A DNA stretch of 9,570 nt, from NCBI GenBank assembly GCA_021795795.1, contig JAJYPA010000222.1:1-9570 (forward strand). The letters are read 5' to 3'. This stretch comes from Pseudomonadota bacterium. Its GTDB lineage: Bacteria; Pseudomonadota; Gammaproteobacteria; Halothiobacillales; Halothiobacillaceae. The translations under genes and the position numbers were made by a program. Of this stretch, positions 1-9,570 are shown one piece after another; positions within the stretch are counted from its first letter, which is position 1; each line of letters starts with the position of its first letter. The notes below the pieces were generated by a model. That model was not told the origin of the DNA. It made no database searches and saw nothing but the letters and a program-made list of their open reading frames with translations.

Positions 1-143
1 GCTTGCCGCAGGTTTTCCTCCACGACCGGATCGGGCGGCTTCCCTTGCGCAATCTGGCGCAGGTTTTCCATGGTCCAGGCCGCCATCGCCAGTTCCAGTT
101 GCCCACTCTGGGCGAGATTCCAGGCGATCTCTCGGTAGGTCAT
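1..143 (-). CDS. Unrecognised protein, N-terminal 47 residues (runs off left edge)
   Basis: An ATG at 143 opens a frame that continues to the left edge without a stop. AGGAGG lies nine bases upstream and overlaps the methylase stop codon, which makes this a genuine coupled gene start rather than a chance frame. The visible protein begins MTYREIAWNLAQSGQLELA, continues with a short helical, tryptophan-containing segment, then QGKPPDPVVEENLRQ. It has no signal peptide or membrane segment and is probably a small cytoplasmic helical protein. I do not recognise the family. Confidence 0.72.
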   Translation of the reverse strand, partial: MTYREIAWNLAQSGQLELAMAAWTMENLRQIAQGKPPDPVVEENLRQ

Positions 144-152
144 GACCCGCTA

Positions 153-158
153 CCTCCT
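153..158 (-). promoter_or_regulatory. Ribosome binding site of the left-edge gene
   Basis: AGGAGG on the minus strand, nine bases before the ATG at 143 and overlapping the stop codon of the methylase gene. It is the main evidence that the left-edge frame is a real gene. Confidence 0.7.
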
Positions 159-1005
159 ATCCGAACAATCCAATTTGCTGATTCTGAATCCCCGGCGACA
201 GCCAGAGGCATTCCGTGCGGGTTTGAGTCTTATCCTGCACCGATGCATAGAGGGCCACTTTGGTGTCGATGCGCTGCCAGCCCGCCGCCTCCAAGGGTCC
301 ATGTACGGCATCGTTCCGATAGCCGGAAACGATGGCCTGCCCTTTCAGGCGCAACAGGGCTTCGATCAGCGCGTGATGATCTTTCAGGCCCATTTCTTCC
401 TGATAGCGCGAGCGATGGTCGCTCATTTTCCGGGTCGTCGGGACGTAAGGCGGGTCGCAGTAAAAAACGGCATGAGGCGCGTCCCAGGTCGAGAGCAGTT
501 GCAGGGCGTCCCGGTTCTCGATGATGACCCCGGACAGCCGTTCCGCCAGCCCTTCCAGTTCTTGCACATGCCAGCGAAACCGCGAGGCCGTATCCCGCTC
601 TTTGGATACGCCCCAATTATTCTCGTTACTGGCATTGCAGCCGCCACCGGAAATGCCCTGGTTCTGGGCGACGAAAAACGCCCAGGCGCGATCCACACTG
701 CCGGATGCCGGATCGCGCAACACATGCAGAGCGCGGGCAAACTCGGAGCGGGCATAGGGGGTGTACTTGAGTTTTTGCATCAGGCGGTCCCGTAAAAGAT
801 CGTCCTGCAAGACCCGGTAGAAGTTCACAATGCGCTCATCACGGTCATTGACCACTTCCATGCCTTTACAGGGTCGAGCCAGCAGGACATTCAGGGCACC
901 CGCGAATGGCTCCACATACAGGGAAGCCCCTACGGTATAGGGTACGATACGGTCCCGGATGCGATTCTTGCCGCCCATCCAGGAAAATGCGGGGGTAACG
1001 TTCAT
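157..1005 (-). CDS. D12-class N6-adenine DNA methyltransferase (Dam-like)
   Basis: Encodes 282 residues. ATG at 1005 is preceded by GGAGG seven bases upstream and overlaps the previous stop. Motifs in order: SWMGGKNRI (8-16, N-terminal cofactor motif), VEPFAGALNVLL (31-42, motif I, S-adenosylmethionine binding), VVNDRDERIVNFY (51-63), FYCDPPYVP (181-189, catalytic motif IV DPPY), GQAIVSGYRND (222-232) and C-terminal TECLWLSPG (264-272). This is the layout of D12-class adenine methylases such as Dam and many phage enzymes; the region around RKMSDHRSRYQEEM resembles the phage and plasmid branch more than housekeeping Dam. Recognition site cannot be read from the sequence. No restriction endonuclease is adjacent in the window, so it looks like an orphan methylase, possibly protecting transferred DNA from host restriction or marking replication state. 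Length is normal for the family. Confidence 0.92.
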   Translation of the reverse strand: MNVTPAFSWMGGKNRIRDRIVPYTVGASLYVEPFAGALNVLLARPCKGMEVVNDRDERIVNFYRVLQDDLLRDRLMQKLKYTPYARSEFARALHVLRDPASGSVDRAWAFFVAQNQGISGGGCNASNENNWGVSKERDTASRFRWHVQELEGLAERLSGVIIENRDALQLLSTWDAPHAVFYCDPPYVPTTRKMSDHRSRYQEEMGLKDHHALIEALLRLKGQAIVSGYRNDAVHGPLEAAGWQRIDTKVALYASVQDKTQTRTECLWLSPGIQNQQIGLFG

Positions 1006-1523
1006 CCAATTTCCTCCAGCATGAAATGACGGATATCCCGATGTATCCGGTCGATGACGCGCATGGCGATGTTTTCACCGGACACATACCGATAGAAAAT
1101 GTCCCGATCTTCCGGCGACAGGCAAAGCAGCGCCTTATTCAAGAGCGGTTCCATATCTGTCAGCCCGAAACTCGTATCGTCCAACTCCTCGTCTACACCA
1201 CGGACAGAGTATTCCGCTTCGAGGCGGCGATAGTGACTTCGATAATCGGTACGGATTTGCCAGTTCAAAAAACTGATAAATCCGCGCCCTTCAAAAGACC
1301 GTGAAACATCGTATTTATCAATACAGCGCACAAAAGATTCCCGGTATTCCTGATAAATATCGTCTACATCATCCCAGGCATGATAACGGTGATGACTTTG
1401 TGCCAGACGGTATAAAAAGGGGTCCGCCCTTTGGAGTAAGGCGGTCAGCACTTGCGGCGATGACCGCGCCGCCAGCACTTCATCGGCCAGAATGGTGGCA
1501 AACGGCAAGGACTTGGTTAGCAA
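1002..1523 (-). CDS. Sigma-70 region 2-like protein, possible element-encoded regulator
   Basis: Encodes 173 residues from TTG at 1523. AAGGGGG lies six bases upstream and no ATG or GTG sits between it and the conserved part, so TTG is the best start. Residues 51-100 follow sigma-70 region 2: DDVDDIYQEY (like D.vQe), then VRCIDKYDVSRSF (like A..kFDp.rg.F) and FLNWQIRTDYRSHYRR (like y...wIr..irr..rr). After an acidic linker (110-118) residues 135-170 begin LSPEDRDIFYRYVSG, as sigma region 4 often does, but the rest is not a convincing helix-turn-helix. It may be a divergent ECF-type sigma factor, or a protein that only keeps the core-polymerase-binding helices. Role by inference: transcription control of the element. 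Its stop overlaps the methylase start by 4 bases (ATGA). Confidence 0.62.
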   Translation of the reverse strand: MLTKSLPFATILADEVLAARSSPQVLTALLQRADPFLYRLAQSHHRYHAWDDVDDIYQEYRESFVRCIDKYDVSRSFEGRGFISFLNWQIRTDYRSHYRRLEAEYSVRGVDEELDDTSFGLTDMEPLLNKALLCLSPEDRDIFYRYVSGENIAMRVIDRIHRDIRHFMLEEIG

Positions 1524-1529
1524 GGCAAT

Positions 1530-1536
1530 CCCCCTT
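1530..1536 (-). promoter_or_regulatory. Ribosome binding site supporting the TTG start of the sigma-like gene
   Basis: AAGGGGG on the minus strand sits six bases before TTG at 1523, in the 26-base gap after the dotG stop. It fixes the unusual start codon, since no other start lies between it and the conserved domain apart from a less likely ATT at 1529. Confidence 0.55.
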
Positions 1537-1549
1537 CTTAATCAGTAAG

Positions 1550-2731
1550 TTATTGTACCTGTTTCATAAACAGAAGTCCAATCGGCGCACCTTGTGCTTC
1601 CCGCACGGTCGGCGGTTCGTTAAAGCGTTTTGCCATAATAGGCGTCAGTACGTTTCCGACATTGCCTGCCGCATACAGGGGAATTTCAGGGCCGGTCAAC
1701 GACTGCGATATTGCAGCATAACCATTACCCATTATGGTGTTGCTGTTGGACATAGCCAAGGCATTATCCACACCGCCCAAAAGGGATGCGGCAATCAGCG
1801 AACCCCACCGGACCAGTGTGTGATGATTGACGCTGGTGGCAACATAAGTACGGGCCGTTTTGGCGTTGATGGCGTATGCGGAAATGGCGTAACTCTGATG
1901 ATTCCAGGTCATTTCGTTAAACTGGATCACGAGCCGGTCTTTTTCGCGTTTGAACTTACCCAACAGTTTCGCTTTATTGAAGCGGCCAGAGACAATTTCC
2001 GCTTCCACCGGCCCCGGTTCATTGCTGTTCATGGCCGTGAGCAGTTCGCCAAAGGCGATATGACCGGGTTGAGCCAACACCGGGCCTTTTGCCACGCCGG
2101 ACATGCTCTTGTTGCTGCCAGGCAGCGGCATACCACGCCCTTGCTCTCCATACCCTTGCAGGGTGCCAACCCCATTATTCAGTACCCGCAAACTGGTGGT
2201 CAGCGGGGTGGGTACAGGTTCGTCGATGAAGCGCATCAATTCCATTTGCGCATCCTTATCCATGGCTTTCTGATAGGCCGTGGGTTTTTGGGGGGCCGCC
2301 GCAGGTTGTACCGGAGCCGGGGCGGGCGCCTTGGGAGGGGCGGACTGGACGGGCGCGACCGGGGCTGCCGGATGCAGAGCGCCCAGGGTCGGAATGTAGC
2401 TCTGGTGGTGCTGTGCCGCCTGTTGCGCCCGCTTTGCGTTCAGTCGCGCAAGATTCTGGTTGTAGAGGGCACCCCCCTTGTCTCCGCCCGGAAGATTCTG
2501 GACGTGCTGCGTCGAACCCGGACTACTCATGACCTTCTGGTGACTGCTACCCAGAAGGTCATACGCGCCGTAGGCGACCATGGCGACGGCCAGGCTCGTC
2601 AGCAACAGGGCGTTGATCCGCGTTTCCGGGCTGGTGTAAAAGTTTTTCAGGTTCCCCAAAACGGAGATTTTCTTTTTTGGCGTTGCTTCATCCTGACTGG
2701 TGTTTGCGGAAGGGTCCGGCTGCATACTCAT
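1550..2731 (-). CDS. dotG: DotG/IcmE-like (TraO-type, VirB10-domain) core complex protein
   Basis: Encodes 393 residues. Start chosen at ATG 2731, overlapping the dotH stop (ATGA) and preceded by an exceptionally complete ribosome binding site. Short cytoplasmic N-terminus rich in charged residues, the segment NFYTSPETRIN, one membrane helix (about 40-57), then a long Pro/Ala/Gln-rich periplasmic linker (about 119-150). The C-terminal part (about 217-390) has VirB10/DotG features: GPVEAEIVSGRF, KLLGKF, RLVIQFNEM, then YAISAYAINAKTARTYVAT, followed by a glycine-rich membrane-antenna-like stretch (SLIAASLLGGVDNALAMS). This subunit links inner and outer membranes in the channel. It lacks the long repeat region of Legionella DotG (about 1050 residues) and is closer in size to plasmid TraO proteins (about 430). 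The next expected gene of a Dot/Icm cluster (dotF/icmG) does not follow; a sigma-like gene does, after 26 bases. Confidence 0.87.
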   Translation of the reverse strand: MSMQPDPSANTSQDEATPKKKISVLGNLKNFYTSPETRINALLLTSLAVAMVAYGAYDLLGSSHQKVMSSPGSTQHVQNLPGGDKGGALYNQNLARLNAKRAQQAAQHHQSYIPTLGALHPAAPVAPVQSAPPKAPAPAPVQPAAAPQKPTAYQKAMDKDAQMELMRFIDEPVPTPLTTSLRVLNNGVGTLQGYGEQGRGMPLPGSNKSMSGVAKGPVLAQPGHIAFGELLTAMNSNEPGPVEAEIVSGRFNKAKLLGKFKREKDRLVIQFNEMTWNHQSYAISAYAINAKTARTYVATSVNHHTLVRWGSLIAASLLGGVDNALAMSNSNTIMGNGYAAISQSLTGPEIPLYAAGNVGNVLTPIMAKRFNEPPTVREAQGAPIGLLFMKQVQ

Positions 2732-3876
2732 TCATCACCTCCTTGCAGGGTGCTAACCCCTTGGTGCGTTTCAAAAACGATGGTGCGCGGTTCGCCATTC
2801 ACGGTCAGCATGGCGGTTTCCGTGGCGGGCAGTTCGTAGGCGTGGACGCCATCGGGCGATTGCAGGGTGGCGAGCCAGGCCGGAGCGAGGACGCTATGCC
2901 GGGTGCGCAGCCAGATTTTGCCGTTCATGCGCCAGGCTTCGCCGTAGCCAAACGGTATCGGTTGCGCGGATCGTGGCATGGTGTCGTACAAGGCCCGCAT
3001 GAGCACGGCATCCGCCGCATCGTGCGAGCGCCCCAGGCCGCCGATGGGCGGCATGGCTCCGGCAGTCAGCCCGTCTACGCGCACGATGATCCGGTAGTCC
3101 ACCATTTTTTGACCTGTTTGCAGATCAAAAAGCAGGGGCGTCGGTAACTGTTGCAACAGGACCGAGAGATTGGAGTCCCGAAACTTCTGTTTGGCCGCAA
3201 TGATGATGGTGCTGGTTTTGACGGGGGCCGCGCCATTGGCCGAGGTCTTGCCTTCCTTGTTCTCCAGGGCGCTTTCGGTCTGGATGCTGCCCGATGTGAC
3301 CGGATTGACGACCTGAAAAGCCGTACCATTGCCCACCGTGGCATCCTCCACGAACCAGGGCTGCCCCCATTCATTGACGAAAGATACGTCTGTCACATAG
3401 CCCGCCGCCATGGGAATGACGGGAATACCCCCCCGGTTGGGATGCACCGTAATGACTTCGGTTTTCGCCAGGGGCGGTGTAATCGGCACTTCCGAAGCTT
3501 TCTGTGTCGCCTGGAGTTTTTTGCGGAAGTTCATCAGGTCTTTGGGATGCAAAGGCAACAGCGACTTGGCCGCAGACTGGTACAGGGTGTTTTCCGGGGG
3601 CAGGGGCGGCAGGGTTGCACCCGGCATAGGGCTGGCCGCAGTTTGGGCTGTCGCCTGCAAGGCGGCAGGAGTGACCGTGACAGCACTCGGCGCGGATTGT
3701 AGCTCCTGGGTCGTTTGGGGCAGGTTGGGGATGGGCGTAGGCGCGGAAAGATGCTCTACGGGCGGGACCGGCGCTTGCGGCACCACCACGACACCCGCCA
3801 CAGCCAGGGCCGGAAAGAGGCTGAGTGCTACGGCCAGCCGAAAGGGGCTGCGCCCCGGCAAAGAGTTTTTGTTCAT
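2728..3876 (-). CDS. dotH: DotH/IcmK-like (TraN-type) outer-membrane core protein of a type IVB system
   Basis: Encodes 382 residues. The start ATG overlaps the dotI stop (ATGA); TAGGAG lies ten bases upstream. Signal peptide about 1-27 (FRLAVALSLFPALAVAG) with no lipobox cysteine, so a soluble secreted protein. Residues 30-98 are a Pro/Ala/Thr-rich linker. The conserved part begins near LLPLHPKDLMNFRKKL (106-121) and includes YVTDVSFVNEWGQPWFV (160-176), matching the 'g.v..i.F.D.tG.pWPI' pattern of DotH/IcmK/TraN, then SNLSVLLQQLPTPLLFDL (235-252) and VDYRIIVRVDG. In Dot/Icm machines this protein forms the outer-membrane ring with lipoproteins DotC and DotD; neither lipoprotein is in the window. 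Length is close to the Legionella homologue (about 360). The stop overlaps the dotG start by 4 bases. Confidence 0.87.
   Translation of the reverse strand: MNKNSLPGRSPFRLAVALSLFPALAVAGVVVVPQAPVPPVEHLSAPTPIPNLPQTTQELQSAPSAVTVTPAALQATAQTAASPMPGATLPPLPPENTLYQSAAKSLLPLHPKDLMNFRKKLQATQKASEVPITPPLAKTEVITVHPNRGGIPVIPMAAGYVTDVSFVNEWGQPWFVEDATVGNGTAFQVVNPVTSGSIQTESALENKEGKTSANGAAPVKTSTIIIAAKQKFRDSNLSVLLQQLPTPLLFDLQTGQKMVDYRIIVRVDGLTAGAMPPIGGLGRSHDAADAVLMRALYDTMPRSAQPIPFGYGEAWRMNGKIWLRTRHSVLAPAWLATLQSPDGVHAYELPATETAMLTVNGEPRTIVFETHQGVSTLQGGDE
2734..2744 (-). promoter_or_regulatory. Near-complete ribosome binding site of the dotG-like gene
   Basis: Read on the minus strand this is AAGGAGGTGAT, an 11-base match to the full complement of the 16S rRNA 3' tail, with GGAGG six bases before the dotG ATG. 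It lies inside the last codons of dotH, so dotG gets a strong independent initiation signal besides stop-start coupling. Other genes in the block have only 4-6 base matches. Confidence 0.8.
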
Positions 3877-4646
3877 GGTTTCGTCGCTCCTAGTACAAGG
3901 TTCTGGATACTGATGCCAGAGGGGTTTTTGATGGTCACGGCGCGTTGAATCAAGACCGTGGCGAGATACTGGTGGTCATTGATCTGGCTCGATGAGCGGA
4001 AAATCATTTTGACGGGGAACTGTACCCGCCAGGCATAAATGCCATTGGGCAGATGCCCTTGCCAGACGACGACGCCGGGGCCGTAAGGGATGGTGGACAC
4101 CATGAGATTACGGTCACGGATGGCCTTGAGTTCGTTATGCGCTTTCAGTCCGGCCAGAAAACCTTGATAACCATCTGATGTGAAATACGCCTGTGCTCTC
4201 TGGAGGTCGCGGCGATAATTCAGAGCCGACAGGCTCAGGGCGTCCGGGATTTTCTGCATGGCCCAGGCGATGACGGTGTGATCCGTGATATAGGGCACGT
4301 CCAGCGCCACCAGGGGCACGATGCGTCCGGTATTGGACGTGGCGAAATAGGCGGGCAAGGGCGGGTGGGTCTCGATCCAGACCGCCGCAAACGTCGCCAT
4401 GGCGCTATAGGCCAGTAGCGCCACATTGATGCGACTGGCGAGTGTATAGAGCCGAAACAGCGAGACATTGGTTTCCCAATGTTGCTGCGCCGCGTTCAAG
4501 TTTTTTTCTATCGCCTTTCGCGTTTCCGCAGCCGCAGGGGCTTGCACCCCGGCAAGGGGTTGCACCCCGGCAGGGGCTTGCCCCCCCGCAGAGGTCTGGC
4601 TTCCCGCAAGGGGTTCAGGCAATGGCTTTTTCTTCATGCCAAACAT
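3873..4646 (-). CDS. dotI: DotI/IcmL-like (TraM-type) type IVB secretion inner-membrane protein
   Basis: Encodes 257 residues. ATG at 4646 has GGAGG nine bases upstream; a second Met at 4637 is less well placed. Layout: cytoplasmic N-terminus with five six-residue repeats of the type [AP]xAGVQ (about 11-40), a charged amphipathic segment (41-70), one membrane helix (about 73-91, INVALLAYSAMATFAAVW), then a periplasmic domain to the end. The C-terminal NPSGISIQNLVLG (241-253) matches the NPxGI.I signature of DotI/IcmL. In Dot/Icm and IncI systems this bitopic protein forms part of the inner-membrane complex, and its periplasmic domain is structurally like VirB8. Gene order dotI-dotH-dotG agrees with Legionella icmL-icmK-icmE and IncI traM-traN-traO. 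The 5' end overlaps the nuclease gene by 32 bases; the 3' end overlaps dotH by 4 bases (ATGA). Confidence 0.85.
   Translation of the reverse strand: MFGMKKKPLPEPLAGSQTSAGGQAPAGVQPLAGVQAPAAAETRKAIEKNLNAAQQHWETNVSLFRLYTLASRINVALLAYSAMATFAAVWIETHPPLPAYFATSNTGRIVPLVALDVPYITDHTVIAWAMQKIPDALSLSALNYRRDLQRAQAYFTSDGYQGFLAGLKAHNELKAIRDRNLMVSTIPYGPGVVVWQGHLPNGIYAWRVQFPVKMIFRSSSQINDHQYLATVLIQRAVTIKNPSGISIQNLVLGATKP
4534..4623 (-). repeat. Five-copy 18-base tandem repeat at the start of the dotI-like gene
   Basis: Five 18-base units in tandem at 4534-4551, 4552-4569, 4570-4587, 4588-4605 and 4606-4623. The first three are nearly identical (on the plus strand GCAGGGGCTTGCACCCCG, with few changes) and the last two have decayed. 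Each encodes a six-residue unit, giving PLAGSQ, TSAGGQ, APAGVQ, PLAGVQ, APAAAE in the cytoplasmic N-terminus of DotI. Alternating G and C runs (GGGG, TTGCA, CCCC) can pair into small hairpins. Copy number may vary by slippage. Confidence 0.85.
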
Positions 4647-5022
4647 GGGGCAATTCCTCCCGGATCAACTGACAGATGGTGGATAAATCGGTGTGACACA
4701 AAGAGCCGGTATCGACATTCGGGTAAATATCGGCCAGGTCGAACACGGCGGTCCAAGGATGCCGGGACTGGCGATAAAAGAGGATCGGGATCACGCCTCC
4801 ATTCTGGTGGCGGGTGGCGTTGACCTGATCCCACCAGGCTTGCCGAAAGGGAATCTCCTGGCGCTTCACTTCGATGGAGAAGCCAGGAATGCTCAGGGAA
4901 TCCGCGCCCGAATCGCGGGTCTGCACGAGATTGCGCTGCACAACGGTTCCCAACCGTTCGGACAGCAGAGCAAACAATTGACGTTCACCGCATGCACCCT
5001 TTTCGCGTTGCATTTTTGCCAT
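4615..5022 (-). CDS. PD-(D/E)XK-type endonuclease, small
   Basis: Encodes 135 residues. The start ATG at 5022 has AGGAG six bases upstream, overlapping the stop of the dsb gene. An early basic segment leads to GERQLFALL (Glu13), then RDSGAD (Asp41) and, ten residues later, the signature E51-V-K53 in IEVKRQE, followed by an aromatic AWWDQV and a beta segment PILFYR. The spacing Glu...Asp...ExK is that of the PD-(D/E)XK nuclease fold, and the overall pattern resembles small phage and plasmid putative PDDEXK endonucleases related to VRR-NUC and Holliday-junction resolvases. Substrate is unknown; a structure-specific or repair role in element DNA metabolism is an inference. Its last 32 bases overlap the start of the DotI-like gene, suggesting coupled translation. 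No signal peptide, so it should act in the cytoplasm. Confidence 0.78.
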   Translation of the reverse strand: MAKMQREKGACGERQLFALLSERLGTVVQRNLVQTRDSGADSLSIPGFSIEVKRQEIPFRQAWWDQVNATRHQNGGVIPILFYRQSRHPWTAVFDLADIYPNVDTGSLCHTDLSTICQLIREELPHVWHEEKAIA

Positions 5023-5025
5023 GAC

Positions 5026-5802
5026 CTACTCCTGCACCTGGGGAAGCGTGGGCATGACGATATGCCGGACACGCGGCACCGGAACCAGCCCTTGCCGGAA
5101 GTCCGACCCCACTACCGGAGCTTTTTTCACGGTGGGGGGTTGCACCCCGGCAGGGGTTTGTACAAAACCCTCATGTAGCGCCGGACCCTGGGGGGTCGTC
5201 ACGACGAAAGTGGGCGTTGCGGGCTTTCCGCCTTCCAGGTCGGCCAGCACCGCCGTATTGATGGCCACGATGTCGGCAATGGTCTTGTGGCCTTGCGGGA
5301 AAGCCTGGGGCAGTCCGCCTTCCTCGGTGACGGTGTTGAAGTGGCGCTCATTGCGCAAAAACATCGCTTGCGGGTTTTTCGCCTGCAAGATGCGCCCGGC
5401 CTTGGGTAAGGAGCTTTTTTTGAGGATGGCGACTGGAATGATGAGATAGCGGGCCTTGCCCGCCGCCACCCCGGCCTGCACCTGTTCAAAAAACCGATGG
5501 CACCAGAGGCAGTTCGCGTCGATGAACACAATGGCCTTGGCCGGAGCCGTTTTCGCGCCCCACACGAAGCCGTGAATTTTGTGCAGCAGGAGCGCATCCT
5601 GGGCCGGAATCGGCGTGAGGCCCGCTTGCAGCGGTGCAACCACTTGTGCCGGGGTTACCGACTGCGCCGGGGCAGCCGGTTGCACCGGAACGGTGGTTTT
5701 TTCTATGGGTCTTTCCCAGACGGGGACGGGCAAGGGGACGGCGGCCCAGGCCATGCCGGATACCAGACTCAGCAGCAATGCAACCAGCAGTTTATTTCGC
5801 AT
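5026..5802 (-). CDS. DsbC/DsbG-like periplasmic thioredoxin-fold disulfide isomerase
   Basis: Encodes 258 residues. The open frame reaches 5940, but the first 46 codons are not secretory and look like a shadow frame; ATG at 5802 has GGGAG seven bases upstream and begins a clear signal peptide (MRNKLLVALLLSLVSGMAWA). After a Pro/Ala/Val/Gln-rich linker (about 22-65) comes a thioredoxin fold: strand IVFID, then active site C98-L-W-C101 followed by His, and PATPTF with the likely cis-proline at 197. The Cys-x-x-Cys-His layout and long helical insert fit DsbC/DsbG rather than plain thioredoxin. The usual N-terminal dimerisation domain is missing and appears to be the preceding gene. A proline- and valine-rich tail (about 215-258) contains TPAGVQP, close to the repeat unit at the start of the DotI-like protein. 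Role by inference: oxidative folding of exported transfer-apparatus proteins, as Dsb proteins do in other conjugative systems. The next gene follows after 3 bases. Confidence 0.85.
   Translation of the reverse strand: MRNKLLVALLLSLVSGMAWAAVPLPVPVWERPIEKTTVPVQPAAPAQSVTPAQVVAPLQAGLTPIPAQDALLLHKIHGFVWGAKTAPAKAIVFIDANCLWCHRFFEQVQAGVAAGKARYLIIPVAILKKSSLPKAGRILQAKNPQAMFLRNERHFNTVTEEGGLPQAFPQGHKTIADIVAINTAVLADLEGGKPATPTFVVTTPQGPALHEGFVQTPAGVQPPTVKKAPVVGSDFRQGLVPVPRVRHIVMPTLPQVQE
5136..5156 (-). repeat. Second copy of the dotI repeat core, within the dsb gene
   Basis: These 21 bases are identical to 4556-4576 in the tandem repeat of dotI and encode part of TPAGVQPP near the C-terminus of the DsbC-like protein. 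The match joins two coding regions of unrelated function about 580 bases apart, and the G-run/C-run arrangement is also hairpin-forming here. Confidence 0.8.
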
Positions 5803-6100
5803 ACATTTTCTCCCAGAGTGGGGTGACGTTCTGCCCGGTTTTGAGGTCCATGAGCGGACCAATAGCGAGATACTTTCCAGCGACGAGATACGCGATCTCC
5901 GGGCCTTTGGGGGTGTGTAGCCGCACGATGGTGACGCCATGACGGTGCGAGAGGCGTACCGCCGTGACCGCGCCGTGGGTGTCTTGATGCGTCTGCACCG
6001 CGATGACGCTCAGATCGGGTTGATGCACCCATATCCAGGCCATCAGACCCGTAACGGCGACGAGAACGCCCGTGATATAGGTCCATGAGGATTTACGCAT
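5792..6100 (-). CDS. Membrane-anchored DsbC/DsbG N-terminal-domain-like protein
   Basis: Encodes 102 residues. An ATG at 6115 is also in frame, but it has no ribosome binding site, whereas 6100 has GAGGAAG just upstream, so 6100 is preferred. Residues 7-25 form one hydrophobic membrane helix (YITGVLVAVTGLMAWIWV) after a basic N-terminus, which predicts a periplasmic C-terminus. The end of the protein (YLVAGKYLAIGPLMDLKTG, then QNVT, about 71-93) resembles the DsbC/DsbG N-terminal dimerisation domain, where a 'DGKyiiqG..yD...vT' pattern precedes the linker to the thioredoxin domain. There is no cysteine. The next gene encodes the thioredoxin part, so the pair looks like a split disulfide isomerase. 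The similarity is from memory of the family and was not searched. The start overlaps the primase-helicase stop by 8 bases, and the end overlaps the next start by 11 bases, implying translational coupling. Confidence 0.75.
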   Translation of the reverse strand: MRKSSWTYITGVLVAVTGLMAWIWVHQPDLSVIAVQTHQDTHGAVTAVRLSHRHGVTIVRLHTPKGPEIAYLVAGKYLAIGPLMDLKTGQNVTPLWEKMYAK

Positions 6101-9100
6101 GGTGCGCTTCCTCATCTGTCCAGTAGTGGTCCGGTATCGGCTTCAAAATGATCTCCCGCAGCATTTGCACGTACTCATCACCAGGGTGATGCCGATTTTT
6201 GTGCAGGTCCGTGAGGATTTTTTCTGCGGCTTGCGCCGAATCGCAGCGATGGCGGTCCATGACGCGGATCGTGTCCATGAGGGCTTCCCCGTCCGGCGCG
6301 TCGCCGCGCCCCGGCAGAGCGGCTTCCCGGCGTCGGATACGGTCGCCTTCTCGTCGCGCAAAGGCTCGGACAGCCTCGGCATTGGTCAATGCCCAGAGTT
6401 CCGCAATGTCGATGCCCGGAACATTGACACCTCGGCTACTATTCTCTTTTACCAAGGTGTCAATAACTTGCCGCCAGTTCTCGTAACGGATGCCCTTGCT
6501 GGTTTTTTCCTTTGCTATCTGGTCGATACGCTGAAAAGTCGGACGCATACCCAGTTCGATAACCTGTTGTACGATGCTGCGTACTTTCTCAACGGCGCGG
6601 TTGTGAACTTTCTTCTGGCAGTGGCTATGCCCATCCACGGAATGAACGACCATGCCAAAGAGGGGCAGCAACGGGATATTGCAGCGCAGGTTGACGGTCA
6701 GTTGTTCATCGGGCCTTTGGGCGGCGCGTAGTCGGCCAACGGCCTGTACGATTTCGATGGTGTGATACTCGCGCACGAAATAGGCGAAGTCGGGATTTTC
6801 CGGCAGGGTACAAGACGTTTCCGAATGGGGAATATAGGAGATACCTACCGATTGCGGCGTCCAGGGATCATCTTCGCTGACGGGTTTCCAGGGCAGGTCA
6901 TAGAGTCGGCGCGTGGCCTCGTACATCAACCAGTATTGATGATGGGAGAGCATTTGCAGGCCCAGGATTTCCATGTGCGTACATTCCCGATACCGATTAT
7001 GTCCTTCATGATCCCGGTTCCAGTATCCAATGACCTTTAATTCCGTGGATTGGAGCGCGTCGGCATAGATTTTCGTCGTGAGCAGGATCGAGTTTTCGGG
7101 TGCGGCTTCCAGAATATCCACGGCATCCCGCAGGGTTTCCTCGAAGTGATAGGTCAGTGCGGTCTTGCTCCAGTTTCGTCCGCGTATCCAGTGGACGCGC
7201 AGATTGGGTGTCGCCGGATAATGCTCGGTGACGTTGTACTGACAGAGATGCCGAAGCGCCAAATTGGGTGTCGCCGTCAGGATGGTAATGTCCTGTTTGC
7301 GGGACTGGTGGAGCAGAGCCTCGCCTATCGTTGTTCGGGTCACGGCAATCATGGCCTGGTCGGCCCAGAACATGGTCCGGGTCTGAATGGCCTTGGAAAG
7401 CCGATCCAGCAGGACCGGCCCCCGATGTTTCCGCGAGTCACCCAATATTTTGTAGATGCGCTCAAAGATGGTGACATAACTGAAATGCTTGAAGTTTCTG
7501 ATGAGGTTGTGAAACTCGTCCCAGGATTTTCCGGGCATCGGCGGGATGTCGCCGTTCTTCCAGCCGGTCATGAGCAGGCTTTCCATGTACATGATCCAGC
7601 GCATCATTTTCTGATAGGCTTCGAGCCGTTCATCCCGGTCCGGCTCCGTGTAAAAGCGTTGATCGGTCAGAAAATTGTGGTGAACGCTCAAGCGTAGCTG
7701 GTACAGGATTTCACTCAGGTAACGGTTTTCCTCCAGGAGTTGCGGGGCTTCGTCGAGAACGACCTTGCCGCGCAGTTTGCCGTTTGCCTTGAACAGCGTC
7801 GGATCGCCATTGAGCGCGGCATGGGTGCTGGCGAGATGCGCTTCCTGATACCAGTGTTCCAGGCGCTTCATCATGTGCGGACAGAGGGGTGCTCCCGTAT
7901 CCGCCCCTTTTTTGCCATTGGTCAGATAAAAGAGGGTGGCCAGCCCTTGCGGGCACTCCTGATTGCAGAATTGCGAGACAGGGAACCCCAGGGCGCTGAG
8001 GGTGGCCGGTGCGGGCAGGCCATCCGGCTCCGTAGCGACATGGATAGGCGCGACTTCGGGTGGCGCTTCTCCCTGGAGTCCAAAGTAAACAGGACAATAT
8101 CGTTCTGGGTTTTCAATGATCTGCGTGGGCGTGGCATTGCCAGGCGCAGCCTTGCCGCAGGGATTGGAACAGGACTGGCAATTGCCAGTACACAGCGTTT
8201 CTCTACGACCGTGGTGTTCCTGGGTTTCCGGGTCGAGGTTCCGGGCCAGTGCCCGGCGTCCCTCGCGGGTCGGTGCGCAGGCGATGGCGCTTTCCTGGGC
8301 GTGGGGGAGGATTTCGGCCAGGGCATGACTTTTGCCCGCGCCGGTGCCTACGGCGATGATGCTTTTTTTTCCACTACCTGGCGCGTTCAGGTCGGTCTCC
8401 AGTGTGTGGCGTACTTTTTCGTAGATTTTCTCGATGGGTTCAGGACTCCACTGCCGCATCGGGTGATCGGGATGCAGCAGGTTATCCGAGGTCAGGAGCA
8501 GGGGGTGCAGATTGGCCCGTTGCGCTTTTGTGAGATCGTTGGCGTCCAGCTTGGCCGCAATCGAATCGAATGGGCCTTTACCGTCCGGGCGCAGCAGGAA
8601 CAGATTTGCGGACGTTTGGGGCAGCCAGCGGATAGCCAGATTAAGGATCGCCTGTAATCCCTTGCCGTGCGGTTCCAGGTCGGGCGAAAGAATGATTTGC
8701 TGGTATTTCTTGATGATTTCCAGTTGTGCAAACTGGCCTACGGACATGCCCGCAATCACATCGGCTTTGGGAAAGTCTTGGGCAGTAGTCCAGGCGCTTT
8801 CCAGTCCTTCGCCGATAACGAGAATGCTTGTGCCGGACGTTTTGCGGTAGAACACCCGGCCATTTTGGGCGACACCCGTTGGAAAATGCCGGGTGATCTT
8901 GCGGCCATCGGCGTCCAGCCAGGTTTCCTGCCAGGCGCGTTCATGGTGTTTCGCGGGATTGCGCAAGGGCGTAATCAGGACGGCTTTTACGCCCCGGTCC
9001 AGCAGGGCGCGGGCTTCCTTGCCGAGCTTGCCGTCCAGTGAGGTATGCGAAAAAAACAGGCCGTCAAAGGGGCCGTCCAGGTGGCGGTGTTCTTGCAGGT

Positions 9101-9570
9101 AGCGCAGCACGATGGCGCGGGTATTTTCAATGCCGTCGCTGGTCAGGGGTGCGGAAAAAGGGCTGACCATGGGGGGGTGTTTGCGGGCATGGGCCAGCCG
9201 CTTTTCCAGCAGTGGCCCATCGACCGGGTACACGTCATAGTTCAGGGTGATGTCGGGTTCGCCCCAATACAGCACTTCCAGTTGGCGCTTGGTAAATTCC
9301 CGGTTCTCTTTCGTGGCCCGCAAGGTCTCCAGATAGCTGCGGCGGGTATCCTTCTTCCGAAACGGTGCGTGGCGCTTTGCCGAGAAAAACACGCCCAGAT
9401 CATTGAAAGTCTGGCGCAGGTTGCCACAGACCGAGCAATGGGCATGGGTCCAGCCGCGTTCATCCTGGGCGATCCAGGCGGACGGGTTTTTGTCGTCATG
9501 GGCGGGACAGAGAAAGGTGGCCTTGTGCGATCCGGCCTTTTTGAACTTTTGGACCAGCGGCTGAATCTCG
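6093..9570 (-). CDS. Primase-helicase fusion protein (CHCC zinc ribbon, TOPRIM, SF2 DEAH helicase), 5' partial
   Basis: The reading frame stays open to the right edge, so the real start lies outside the window; 1158 residues are visible (residue 1 is the codon at 9569). A GTG at 9392 is only an internal valine, and starting there would delete the zinc ribbon. Domains in order: CPAH at 21-24 and CSVC at 45-48 form a DnaG-type CHCC zinc ribbon; about 140-250 resembles the primase segment of plasmid and phage primases; TOPRIM spans about 245-315, with GEGLESA (Glu254) and SPDLEP (Asp297, Glu299). A helicase follows: Walker A GTGAGKS at 408-414, a cysteine-rich stretch (C460, C464, C467, C471, C492, C535, C539, C563), Walker B/motif II DEAP at 606-609, motif III TATP at 765-768, motif VI QAVGRLR at 942-948. 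Cysteines between motifs I and II recall the Fe-S domain of XPD/DinG helicases. Inferred role: priming and unwinding during replication or transfer of the element. The 3' end overlaps the next gene by 8 bases. Confidence 0.88.
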   Translation of the reverse strand, partial: EIQPLVQKFKKAGSHKATFLCPAHDDKNPSAWIAQDERGWTHAHCSVCGNLRQTFNDLGVFFSAKRHAPFRKKDTRRSYLETLRATKENREFTKRQLEVLYWGEPDITLNYDVYPVDGPLLEKRLAHARKHPPMVSPFSAPLTSDGIENTRAIVLRYLQEHRHLDGPFDGLFFSHTSLDGKLGKEARALLDRGVKAVLITPLRNPAKHHERAWQETWLDADGRKITRHFPTGVAQNGRVFYRKTSGTSILVIGEGLESAWTTAQDFPKADVIAGMSVGQFAQLEIIKKYQQIILSPDLEPHGKGLQAILNLAIRWLPQTSANLFLLRPDGKGPFDSIAAKLDANDLTKAQRANLHPLLLTSDNLLHPDHPMRQWSPEPIEKIYEKVRHTLETDLNAPGSGKKSIIAVGTGAGKSHALAEILPHAQESAIACAPTREGRRALARNLDPETQEHHGRRETLCTGNCQSCSNPCGKAAPGNATPTQIIENPERYCPVYFGLQGEAPPEVAPIHVATEPDGLPAPATLSALGFPVSQFCNQECPQGLATLFYLTNGKKGADTGAPLCPHMMKRLEHWYQEAHLASTHAALNGDPTLFKANGKLRGKVVLDEAPQLLEENRYLSEILYQLRLSVHHNFLTDQRFYTEPDRDERLEAYQKMMRWIMYMESLLMTGWKNGDIPPMPGKSWDEFHNLIRNFKHFSYVTIFERIYKILGDSRKHRGPVLLDRLSKAIQTRTMFWADQAMIAVTRTTIGEALLHQSRKQDITILTATPNLALRHLCQYNVTEHYPATPNLRVHWIRGRNWSKTALTYHFEETLRDAVDILEAAPENSILLTTKIYADALQSTELKVIGYWNRDHEGHNRYRECTHMEILGLQMLSHHQYWLMYEATRRLYDLPWKPVSEDDPWTPQSVGISYIPHSETSCTLPENPDFAYFVREYHTIEIVQAVGRLRAAQRPDEQLTVNLRCNIPLLPLFGMVVHSVDGHSHCQKKVHNRAVEKVRSIVQQVIELGMRPTFQRIDQIAKEKTSKGIRYENWRQVIDTLVKENSSRGVNVPGIDIAELWALTNAEAVRAFARREGDRIRRREAALPGRGDAPDGEALMDTIRVMDRHRCDSAQAAEKILTDLHKNRHHPGDEYVQMLREIILKPIPDHYWTDEEAHHA
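6107..6113 (-). promoter_or_regulatory. Ribosome binding site deciding the start of the DsbC N-domain-like gene
   Basis: GAGGAAG on the minus strand lies six bases before ATG 6100 and covers the alternative ATG at 6115, so initiation at 6100 is favoured. It sits within the last codons of the primase-helicase. Confidence 0.6.

Follow-up and report, generated by a model that had tools for sequence, protein, structure and literature searches.

What kind of motor is joined to the primase encoded upstream of a set of conjugation genes, and what would such a protein do there? The question is raised by a 9,570-nucleotide stretch of DNA from a Pseudomonadota bacterium of the Halothiobacillaceae (assembly GCA_021795795.1, contig JAJYPA010000222.1, positions 1 to 9,570), hereafter the window, whose minus strand carries a long gene with both primase and helicase motifs. 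The textbook single-chain primase-helicases, which serve as models of the coupling of unwinding to priming, use hexameric rings, and XPD/DinG-type motors of helicase superfamily 2 (SF2), a kind that includes the human repair protein XPD, are thought to act without a ring. A preliminary description, made from the sequence of the window alone, had proposed that a primase is here paired with an XPD/DinG-like SF2 motor. The comparisons below agree with that proposal. We favor, with moderate confidence, the explanation that a conjugative element here encodes primase and helicase in one chain, with a T7 gp4/DnaG-type TOPRIM primase mounted on an XPD/DinG-type SF2 motor that is not hexameric and probably carries a [4Fe-4S] insertion. 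Sequence and predicted fold show the single chain, the assignment of both domains, the conservation of motifs and cysteines, and the position in the operon.

One chain with two conserved halves

The list of open reading frames (ORFs) places the stop of the long minus-strand frame at 6093 and leaves the frame open up to 9569, the window edge. The extent first given for the gene, 6093..9570, was right as to the existence of a long frame, but the frame runs to 9569 and is cut by the window end. A near-identical cluster representative, P0001, differs from the window protein by 3 substitutions over 1158 shared residues and is full-length at 1176 aa, which indicates that the window protein lacks 18 N-terminal residues. 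Residues are numbered as in P0001, in which residue r is residue r-18 of the window protein.

A protein search of about 5.8 billion sequences, in which the 7992 candidates with the most shared words were scored, gave 13 protein clusters (P0001-P0013) at E<=1e-3. All are 1109-1227 aa long except the shortest, P0013 (841 aa), and P0002-P0013 share 48-86% identity with the query. These 13 clusters were also what a profile search recovered, and 11 of them came back when the query was the helicase part of P0012. Acidithiobacillus appears in the source name of three (P0006, P0008 and P0010). In an alignment of 12 members (49-87% identical to the first; P0013 excluded), C39, H42, C63, C66, E272, D315, G430, K431, D624, E625, T783-P786, Q960, G963 and R964 are invariant, and because this holds at such divergence, chance occurrence of the motifs was ruled out. 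The zinc ribbon, TOPRIM, Walker A, DEAP, TATP and QAVGRLR motifs first noticed in one chain of more than 1150 residues thus belong to a conserved 1158-residue frame. That two genes have been merged by annotation, or the chain mis-assembled, is extremely improbable: the window is fragmentary and truncates the gene, as such an artefact might have it, but both halves lie in one open chain in 12 homologues, and eight distant ORFs (below) align across both halves or are identical to one that aligns in this way.

Predicted fold, Pfam and PHROGs all identify the N-terminal half as a primase of the DnaG/T7 gp4 type. Its first 17 fold matches are all T7 gp4, Twinkle or DnaG, and the RNA-polymerase/TOPRIM core characteristic of this primase type is present. 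Pfam recognizes the zinc ribbon weakly and below cut-off (Zn_ribbon_DnaG, E 0.026 for the window protein and 0.009 for P0001), and Toprim_3 (PF13362) at E 5.9e-06, with 27.1 bits against a cut-off of 27.2. Of the TOPRIM acids, E272 and D315 are invariant in the family, and the second acid is E317, giving D-x-E rather than the usual D-x-D. Primer synthesis by this half would be the expected activity.

The C-terminal half is an XPD/DinG-type SF2 helicase by predicted fold and profile comparison. Its first 20 fold matches are all XPD, DinG or CasDinG, and residues 395-1005 match the two-domain core of this type, with two RecA-like domains and SF2 motifs I, II, III and VI supported by fold, profile and invariant residues. 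An SF3 or SF4 motor was rejected on this two-domain match; the single RecA-like domain of SF4 is not what the half contains. Structure prediction and profile comparison, the check that the preliminary description had proposed, therefore place the motor in SF2, and neither an SF3/SF4 assignment nor a lack of helicase fold came out. Two of its statements did not fare as well. The label "DEAH-type" does not fit, as the Walker B box reads DEAP, DESP or DEEP among the 12 members, and the statement that known primase-helicase chains use only SF3 or SF4 motors was too narrow, since CyRepA1 and some AEP (archaeo-eukaryotic primase) proteins carry SF2 domains.

Candidate iron-sulfur cysteines

Outside the zinc ribbon, the 12 members share exactly four invariant cysteine columns, C510, C553, C557 and C581, a set beyond the motifs first described. 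They lie between Walker A (426-432) and DEAP (624-627), and P0013, which stands outside the alignment, has like-spaced cysteines at 177, 217, 221 and 245. When distant relatives were added to the family (20 rows, 19 used), hhalign against a DinG set gave probability 92.3, E 5.4e-07 and a score of 65.3 for 156 columns spanning Walker A to Walker B; the best of 40 shuffles scored 25.8. In this alignment the four cysteines pair with DinG residues 120, 194, 199 and 205 (alignment numbering), which we take to be the DinG cluster ligands, and DEAP falls on DinG DEGH. In YoaA, four cysteines (C108, C168, C173 and C179) are expected to be cluster ligands (PMC9826845), and E. coli DinG likewise has four (PMC10450177). 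We consider it probable from the sequence comparison that the insertion binds a [4Fe-4S] cluster.

Single blocks were also compared with DinG, using 40 shuffles per block. Residues 395-470 (39.5 vs 20.7 for the best shuffle) and 920-1000 (21.5 vs 17.1) are clear of the shuffle maximum, 500-640 (23.0 vs 22.1) and 545-640 (22.5 vs 20.8) are narrowly above it, and 740-860 (18.4 vs 20.6) is below it. A global hhalign run against DinG gave nothing useful.

Distant relatives and a related motor on another primase

The family profile was run across 57 genomes of one order (that of G208) and matched five, yielding eight ORFs of 1016-1132 aa, selected by length >900 and the presence of motif VI, that are 19-21% identical to P0001. 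The order was chosen by way of a rusticyanin match, and an A. caldus insertion sequence had no more than short matches, in 3 of its 57 genomes. Three of the five genomes have two different copies each (L044 and L045 in G378, L046 and L047 in G370, L049 and L050 in G383). A wider alignment of 10 rows was made from seven relatives (two of the eight being identical proteins from two genomes) and three family members. Invariant in all ten are E272, D315, D360, D363, G428, G430, K431, C510, C553, C557, C581, D624, E625, A784, T785, Q960, G963, R964 and R966. The zinc ribbon is less constant: C39 and C63 are present in 5/10 and C66 in three, with the cysteine of the other two lying one position later. 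Conservation is thus stricter for the putative Fe-S ligands than for the zinc ribbon. PHROGs on three relatives gave phage DNA primase matches, down to E 4.1e-23; Pfam found Toprim_3 in L051 at 1.1e-06 and did not find it in L046 at E<=0.1.

The protein gave no tblastn match to plasmids or phages at the limits used, and no near-identical plasmid DNA was found. In viral contigs the protein gave one short match (residues 8-37), and profiles A1 and A2 gave none. Three loci in genome contigs matched within the N-terminal 97 residues at most, among them a 592-aa frame (L002) whose ATPase half is different as judged by eye and a 146-aa frame (L003). Solved-structure sequences gave weak matches to apparently unrelated chains. 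Profile A1 matched 7 of 369 evenly drawn Gammaproteobacteria genomes, with every listed place in the primase part; frames of 1380-1780 aa with a TOPRIM primase-like part occur in other Gammaproteobacteria (L008, L009, L010 and L015). Among plasmids, L051 found nine records, none reaching 80% coverage, and L047 found none. A short match on the A. caldus plasmid pTcM1 (L052:20001-20567, record 40919-41485) covers the C-terminal helicase part of a relative only; this stretch resembles a remnant beside other mobile genes.

Across the phylum, helicase profile A3 matched seven of 398 evenly drawn genomes, the best being G563; absence from this search means little because at most three candidates were scored per genome. 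One weak match (G441) is an HrpB helicase. The best match is a 1216-aa ORF (L081:408-4058, minus strand) in which a RepB_primase domain (RepB-type, AEP; Pfam 4.8e-12) is fused to a helicase with an hhalign match to the family helicase profile (probability 95.9, E 6.5e-09) and a weak match to PADLOC type IV DinG (1e-04). It has six cysteines between Walker A and the DEA box, among which ligands are not distinguishable. This one case suggests that motors of the family type have been joined to unrelated primases. Profile A2 matched 202 of the 398 genomes, with at most two candidates scored per genome and, among the matches listed, almost only at model positions 5-346; many of the frames, at ~600 aa, look like ordinary DnaG, and we therefore take this search as no evidence for the fusion. 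In the Arthrobacter phage Atuin, a DinG-like helicase gene (L031:223-2469) is directly followed by a gene annotated as DNA primase; the two are neighbors encoding separate chains.

These alignments bear on a different possibility, that the primase part either has no catalytic activity or is a TOPRIM nuclease, and that the protein serves the element in DNA remodelling or counter-defence. The D-x-E in place of D-x-D and the loss of C39 and C63 in half of the wider set would fit it. However, E272, D315, D360 and D363 are invariant 10/10, the single case of a related helicase fused to an unrelated RepB-type primase suggests that priming is the common task, and the window protein gives only a weak and partial PADLOC match (RT_UG29, 3.4e-04, over 38 residues), on which a defence system was rejected. 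We regard this possibility as improbable.

Operon position and apparent association with conjugation

The preliminary description placed the gene next to type IVB transfer genes, and DotI, DotH and DotG are indeed encoded in the window (Table 1). The primase-helicase gene lies upstream, followed on the same strand by genes for the 107-aa, DsbG-like, PDDEXK nuclease-like, DotI, DotH, DotG, sigma-70 region 2-like and Dam-type methylase proteins, with overlaps or gaps of <=26 bases as annotated. R64 has sog, then a small transfer gene, DotI, traN and traO, and pCTX-M3 has pri, then one small gene, a further two small genes that are annotated on the opposite strand, DotI, DotH and traO (PMC6112013). 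The gene thus occupies the position of the conjugative primase gene in IncI1 and IncM plasmids.

Table 1. Features of the window and of the primase-helicase gene
Feature	Position	Strand	Basis or remark
Primase-helicase gene	6093..9569	minus	1158 codons inside window; ~18 codons of 5' end outside
Zinc ribbon C39-H42-C63-C66	9426..9509	minus	invariant 12/12; Pfam Zn_ribbon_DnaG weak
Primase RNA-polymerase/TOPRIM core	8430..9317	minus
Toprim_3 domain with E272, D315-x-E317, KxDxND	8529..8822	minus	Pfam PF13362; alignment
XPD/DinG-type SF2 helicase core	6609..8441	minus
Walker A GTGAGKS, residues 426-432	8328..8348	minus	alignment
Fe-S-type insertion with C510, C553, C557, C581	7881..8096	minus	invariant; aligned to DinG cysteines
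Walker B DEAP, residues 624-627	7743..7754	minus	alignment
Helical insertion at XPD/DinG arch position	7383..7715	minus	helices predicted after Walker B and before motif III; assigned by position
Motif III TATP, residues 783-786	7266..7277	minus	alignment
Motif VI QAVGRLR, residues 960-966	6726..6746	minus	alignment
C-terminal helical tail	6093..6536	minus	predicted secondary structure; invariant PGRGD stretch
107-aa protein	5792..6115	minus	weak DsbC N-terminal domain, E 0.013; 23-base overlap with primase-helicase gene
DsbG/thioredoxin-like protein	5026..5940	minus	true start probably within frame
PDDEXK nuclease-like protein	4615..5022	minus	Pfam PF24608 9.3e-07
DotI/IcmL (TraM)	3873..4646	minus	Pfam PF11393 1.9e-38
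DotH/IcmK (TraN)	2728..3876	minus	Pfam PF12293 3.6e-41
DotG/IcmE (TraO)	1550..2731	minus	NCBIfam NF033900 9.9e-50, below its cut-off
Sigma-70 region 2-like protein	1002..1523		TIGR02937 2.2e-09, below cut-off; between DotG and Dam-type methylase gene

Two further observations concern this operon. The 107-aa DsbC-like and DsbG-like genes (5026-6115) are perhaps a disulfide isomerase split in two within a transfer operon. The operon also includes a PDDEXK nuclease-like gene; R64 has a PLD (phospholipase D)-type nuclease gene beside sog, and a PLD nuclease lies near a relative in L082.

Whether homologues track type IVB clusters, as had been suggested, could be followed for the three of the eight relatives that lie in stretches of >=15 kb, the other five being on contigs of <=6.5 kb. 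Conjugation genes do lie near two of these three, but they are of another type: a TrwC relaxase and a TrwB coupling protein near L051, and a TrwC relaxase, two TrwB-type proteins and the PLD nuclease near L046 (in L082). The third, L047, has no conjugation gene among the six ORFs scanned. The window DotH has weak matches in 2 of the 57 genomes, neither among the five with relatives. Because two relatives adjoin TrwC/TrwB, the association seems to be with conjugation generally and not with type IVB as such.

An alternative that bears directly on this context is that the protein is a replication initiator or vegetative primase-helicase (Rep) of a plasmid or integrative element, similar to CyRepA1, and lies beside transfer genes by chance. 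CyRepA1, a TOPRIM-like DUF3854 domain with an SF2 domain, is needed for replication of pSYSA and is thus a shown plasmid Rep (PMC9978351, PMC10079941), and L047 with its neighborhood would suit an element of this kind. Against this, the gene precedes and overlaps the dot/tra operon in the position of sog and pri, a single CyRepA1 sequence has no significant hhalign match to the family, and the five Pfam families found in the 12 members at E<=1 include no DUF3854 and no initiator domain. We consider a Rep function unlikely, although it is the strongest of the competing explanations.

Several observations weigh against our preferred explanation, a conjugation-linked primase-helicase. The predicted model has low confidence (pLDDT, the predicted local distance difference test, 66.6; predicted TM-score, pTM, 0.56), and residues 469-556, the Fe-S stretch, are modelled at pLDDT <50. 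The XPD/DinG Foldseek matches have low TM-scores (0.21-0.28 by model length for ranks 1-5, with root-mean-square deviations of 7-32), VIA structure-match rows 19-21 share the same Z, and Pfam gives only a weak DEAD match (E 0.19, in 1 of 12 members) and no XPD/DinG family. In the primase half, D-x-E replaces D-x-D, and the second acid is not retained across all relatives. The context of L047, one of the three long-context relatives, lacks a conjugation gene among its six ORFs. Finally, a single Sog sequence has no significant hhalign match to the family, and the Sog domain LPD7 is in none of the 12 members at E<=1.

A proposed role in conjugation

Catalysis, Fe-S content, oligomeric state, polarity, transport, the step served and the role in replication are what we infer from these features, and we propose the following. 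The SF2 motor would load onto the single-stranded plasmid DNA produced in transfer and travel 5'-3' along it, clearing structure or opening duplex ahead. The primase of the same chain would place primers on the same strand, leading to complementary strand synthesis. Priming might take place in the recipient, provided that the protein crosses over as SogL does, or in the donor behind the relaxase. T7 gp4 moves 5'-3' on the strand that it primes. XPD/Rad3 helicases translocate 5'-3' as well (PMC9826845, PMC10450177), and because this polarity equals that of T7 gp4, an XPD/DinG motor would feed its primase in the right direction. SogL and TraC1 are primases that are sent to the recipient and prime post-transfer replication (PMC5512222). 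It is this precedent, together with a motor polarity that fits a cis-acting primase, that leads us to read the protein as linked to conjugation.

More tentatively, and with doubts that outweigh our confidence, we suggest that a separate primosome class has evolved in the conjugative elements of acidophiles and related organisms. In this class a DnaG-type primase would be driven by a monomeric SF2 motor of the Fe-S kind, which would track the transferred strand 5'-3' and possibly be gated by iron or redox state. A like motor would have been joined independently to a RepB-type primase, making the motor the constant part.

If active, a T7-type primase on an XPD/DinG-type motor would question the need of ring formation for the coupling of unwinding to priming, and the pairing would give mobile DNA another route to that coupling. 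Conjugation would gain a candidate enzyme able both to prepare and to prime the transferred strand. Because the putative Fe-S ligands persist even in proteins that have lost the zinc ribbon, cluster-dependent control of priming becomes testable. This significance is inferred from sequence and predicted folds.

Comparison with known systems

In T7 gp4 and Twinkle, as in the present protein, a single chain carries a DnaG-type primase (or primase-like) core with a helicase after it, and these two are the best N-terminal fold matches. Their motor, however, is a single RecA-like SF4 domain working as a ring, whereas here it matches the two-domain SF2 XPD/DinG type.

Sog of R64 and Pri of pCTX-M3 are likewise large Toprim-type primases encoded upstream of DotI/TraM, DotH/TraN and DotG/TraO. 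In Pfam, Sog matches Toprim_3 (7.8e-05, below cut-off), LPD7 (3.6e-14) and DUF5710 and no helicase at E<=1, whereas the present family has a helicase half.

Primase-SF2 chains have already been published, and the present protein is therefore not a new category. CyRepA1 (Slr7037, 958 aa) and CyRepA2 also have a TOPRIM-like domain followed by an SF2 (DEXDc) domain in one chain, with a role in plasmid replication for this type (PMC9978351, PMC10079941, PMC10899382). CyRepA1 differs in its DUF3854 (3.4e-50), which none of the 12 members shows at E<=1, and in an SF2 part that matches Herpes_ori_bp (UL9-like); membership of the CyRepA1 family was rejected on the lack of DUF3854 and of a significant hhalign match noted above. 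AEP primases of the All3500 family (Kazlauskas 2018; PMC5862659) combine a primase with an SF2-like domain in mobile elements too, but with an AEP fold and a UL9-like motor. The polyvalent proteins of Iyer 2017 (PMC5512222) include Toprim_3 primases of elements with type IV secretion systems, and DinG/RAD3-like helicases are mentioned there as fused to RadC; the SF2 partners in these proteins are mainly of the SWI2/SNF2 type with a methylase, and no primase-DinG chain is described in the parts of that paper covered. No primase-XPD/DinG chain was found described in the titles and abstract openings listed by searches of the open full-text literature, a scope with most subscription papers and preprints outside it. 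The pairing is apparently undescribed, a modest claim given the literature covered.

DinG/YoaA, XPD and CasDinG share with the present protein the helicase core and the four cysteines between motifs I and II, and a helical insertion predicted in the present protein lies at the position of their arch. By the portions of the published descriptions that we covered, the primase part sets the present family apart from them.

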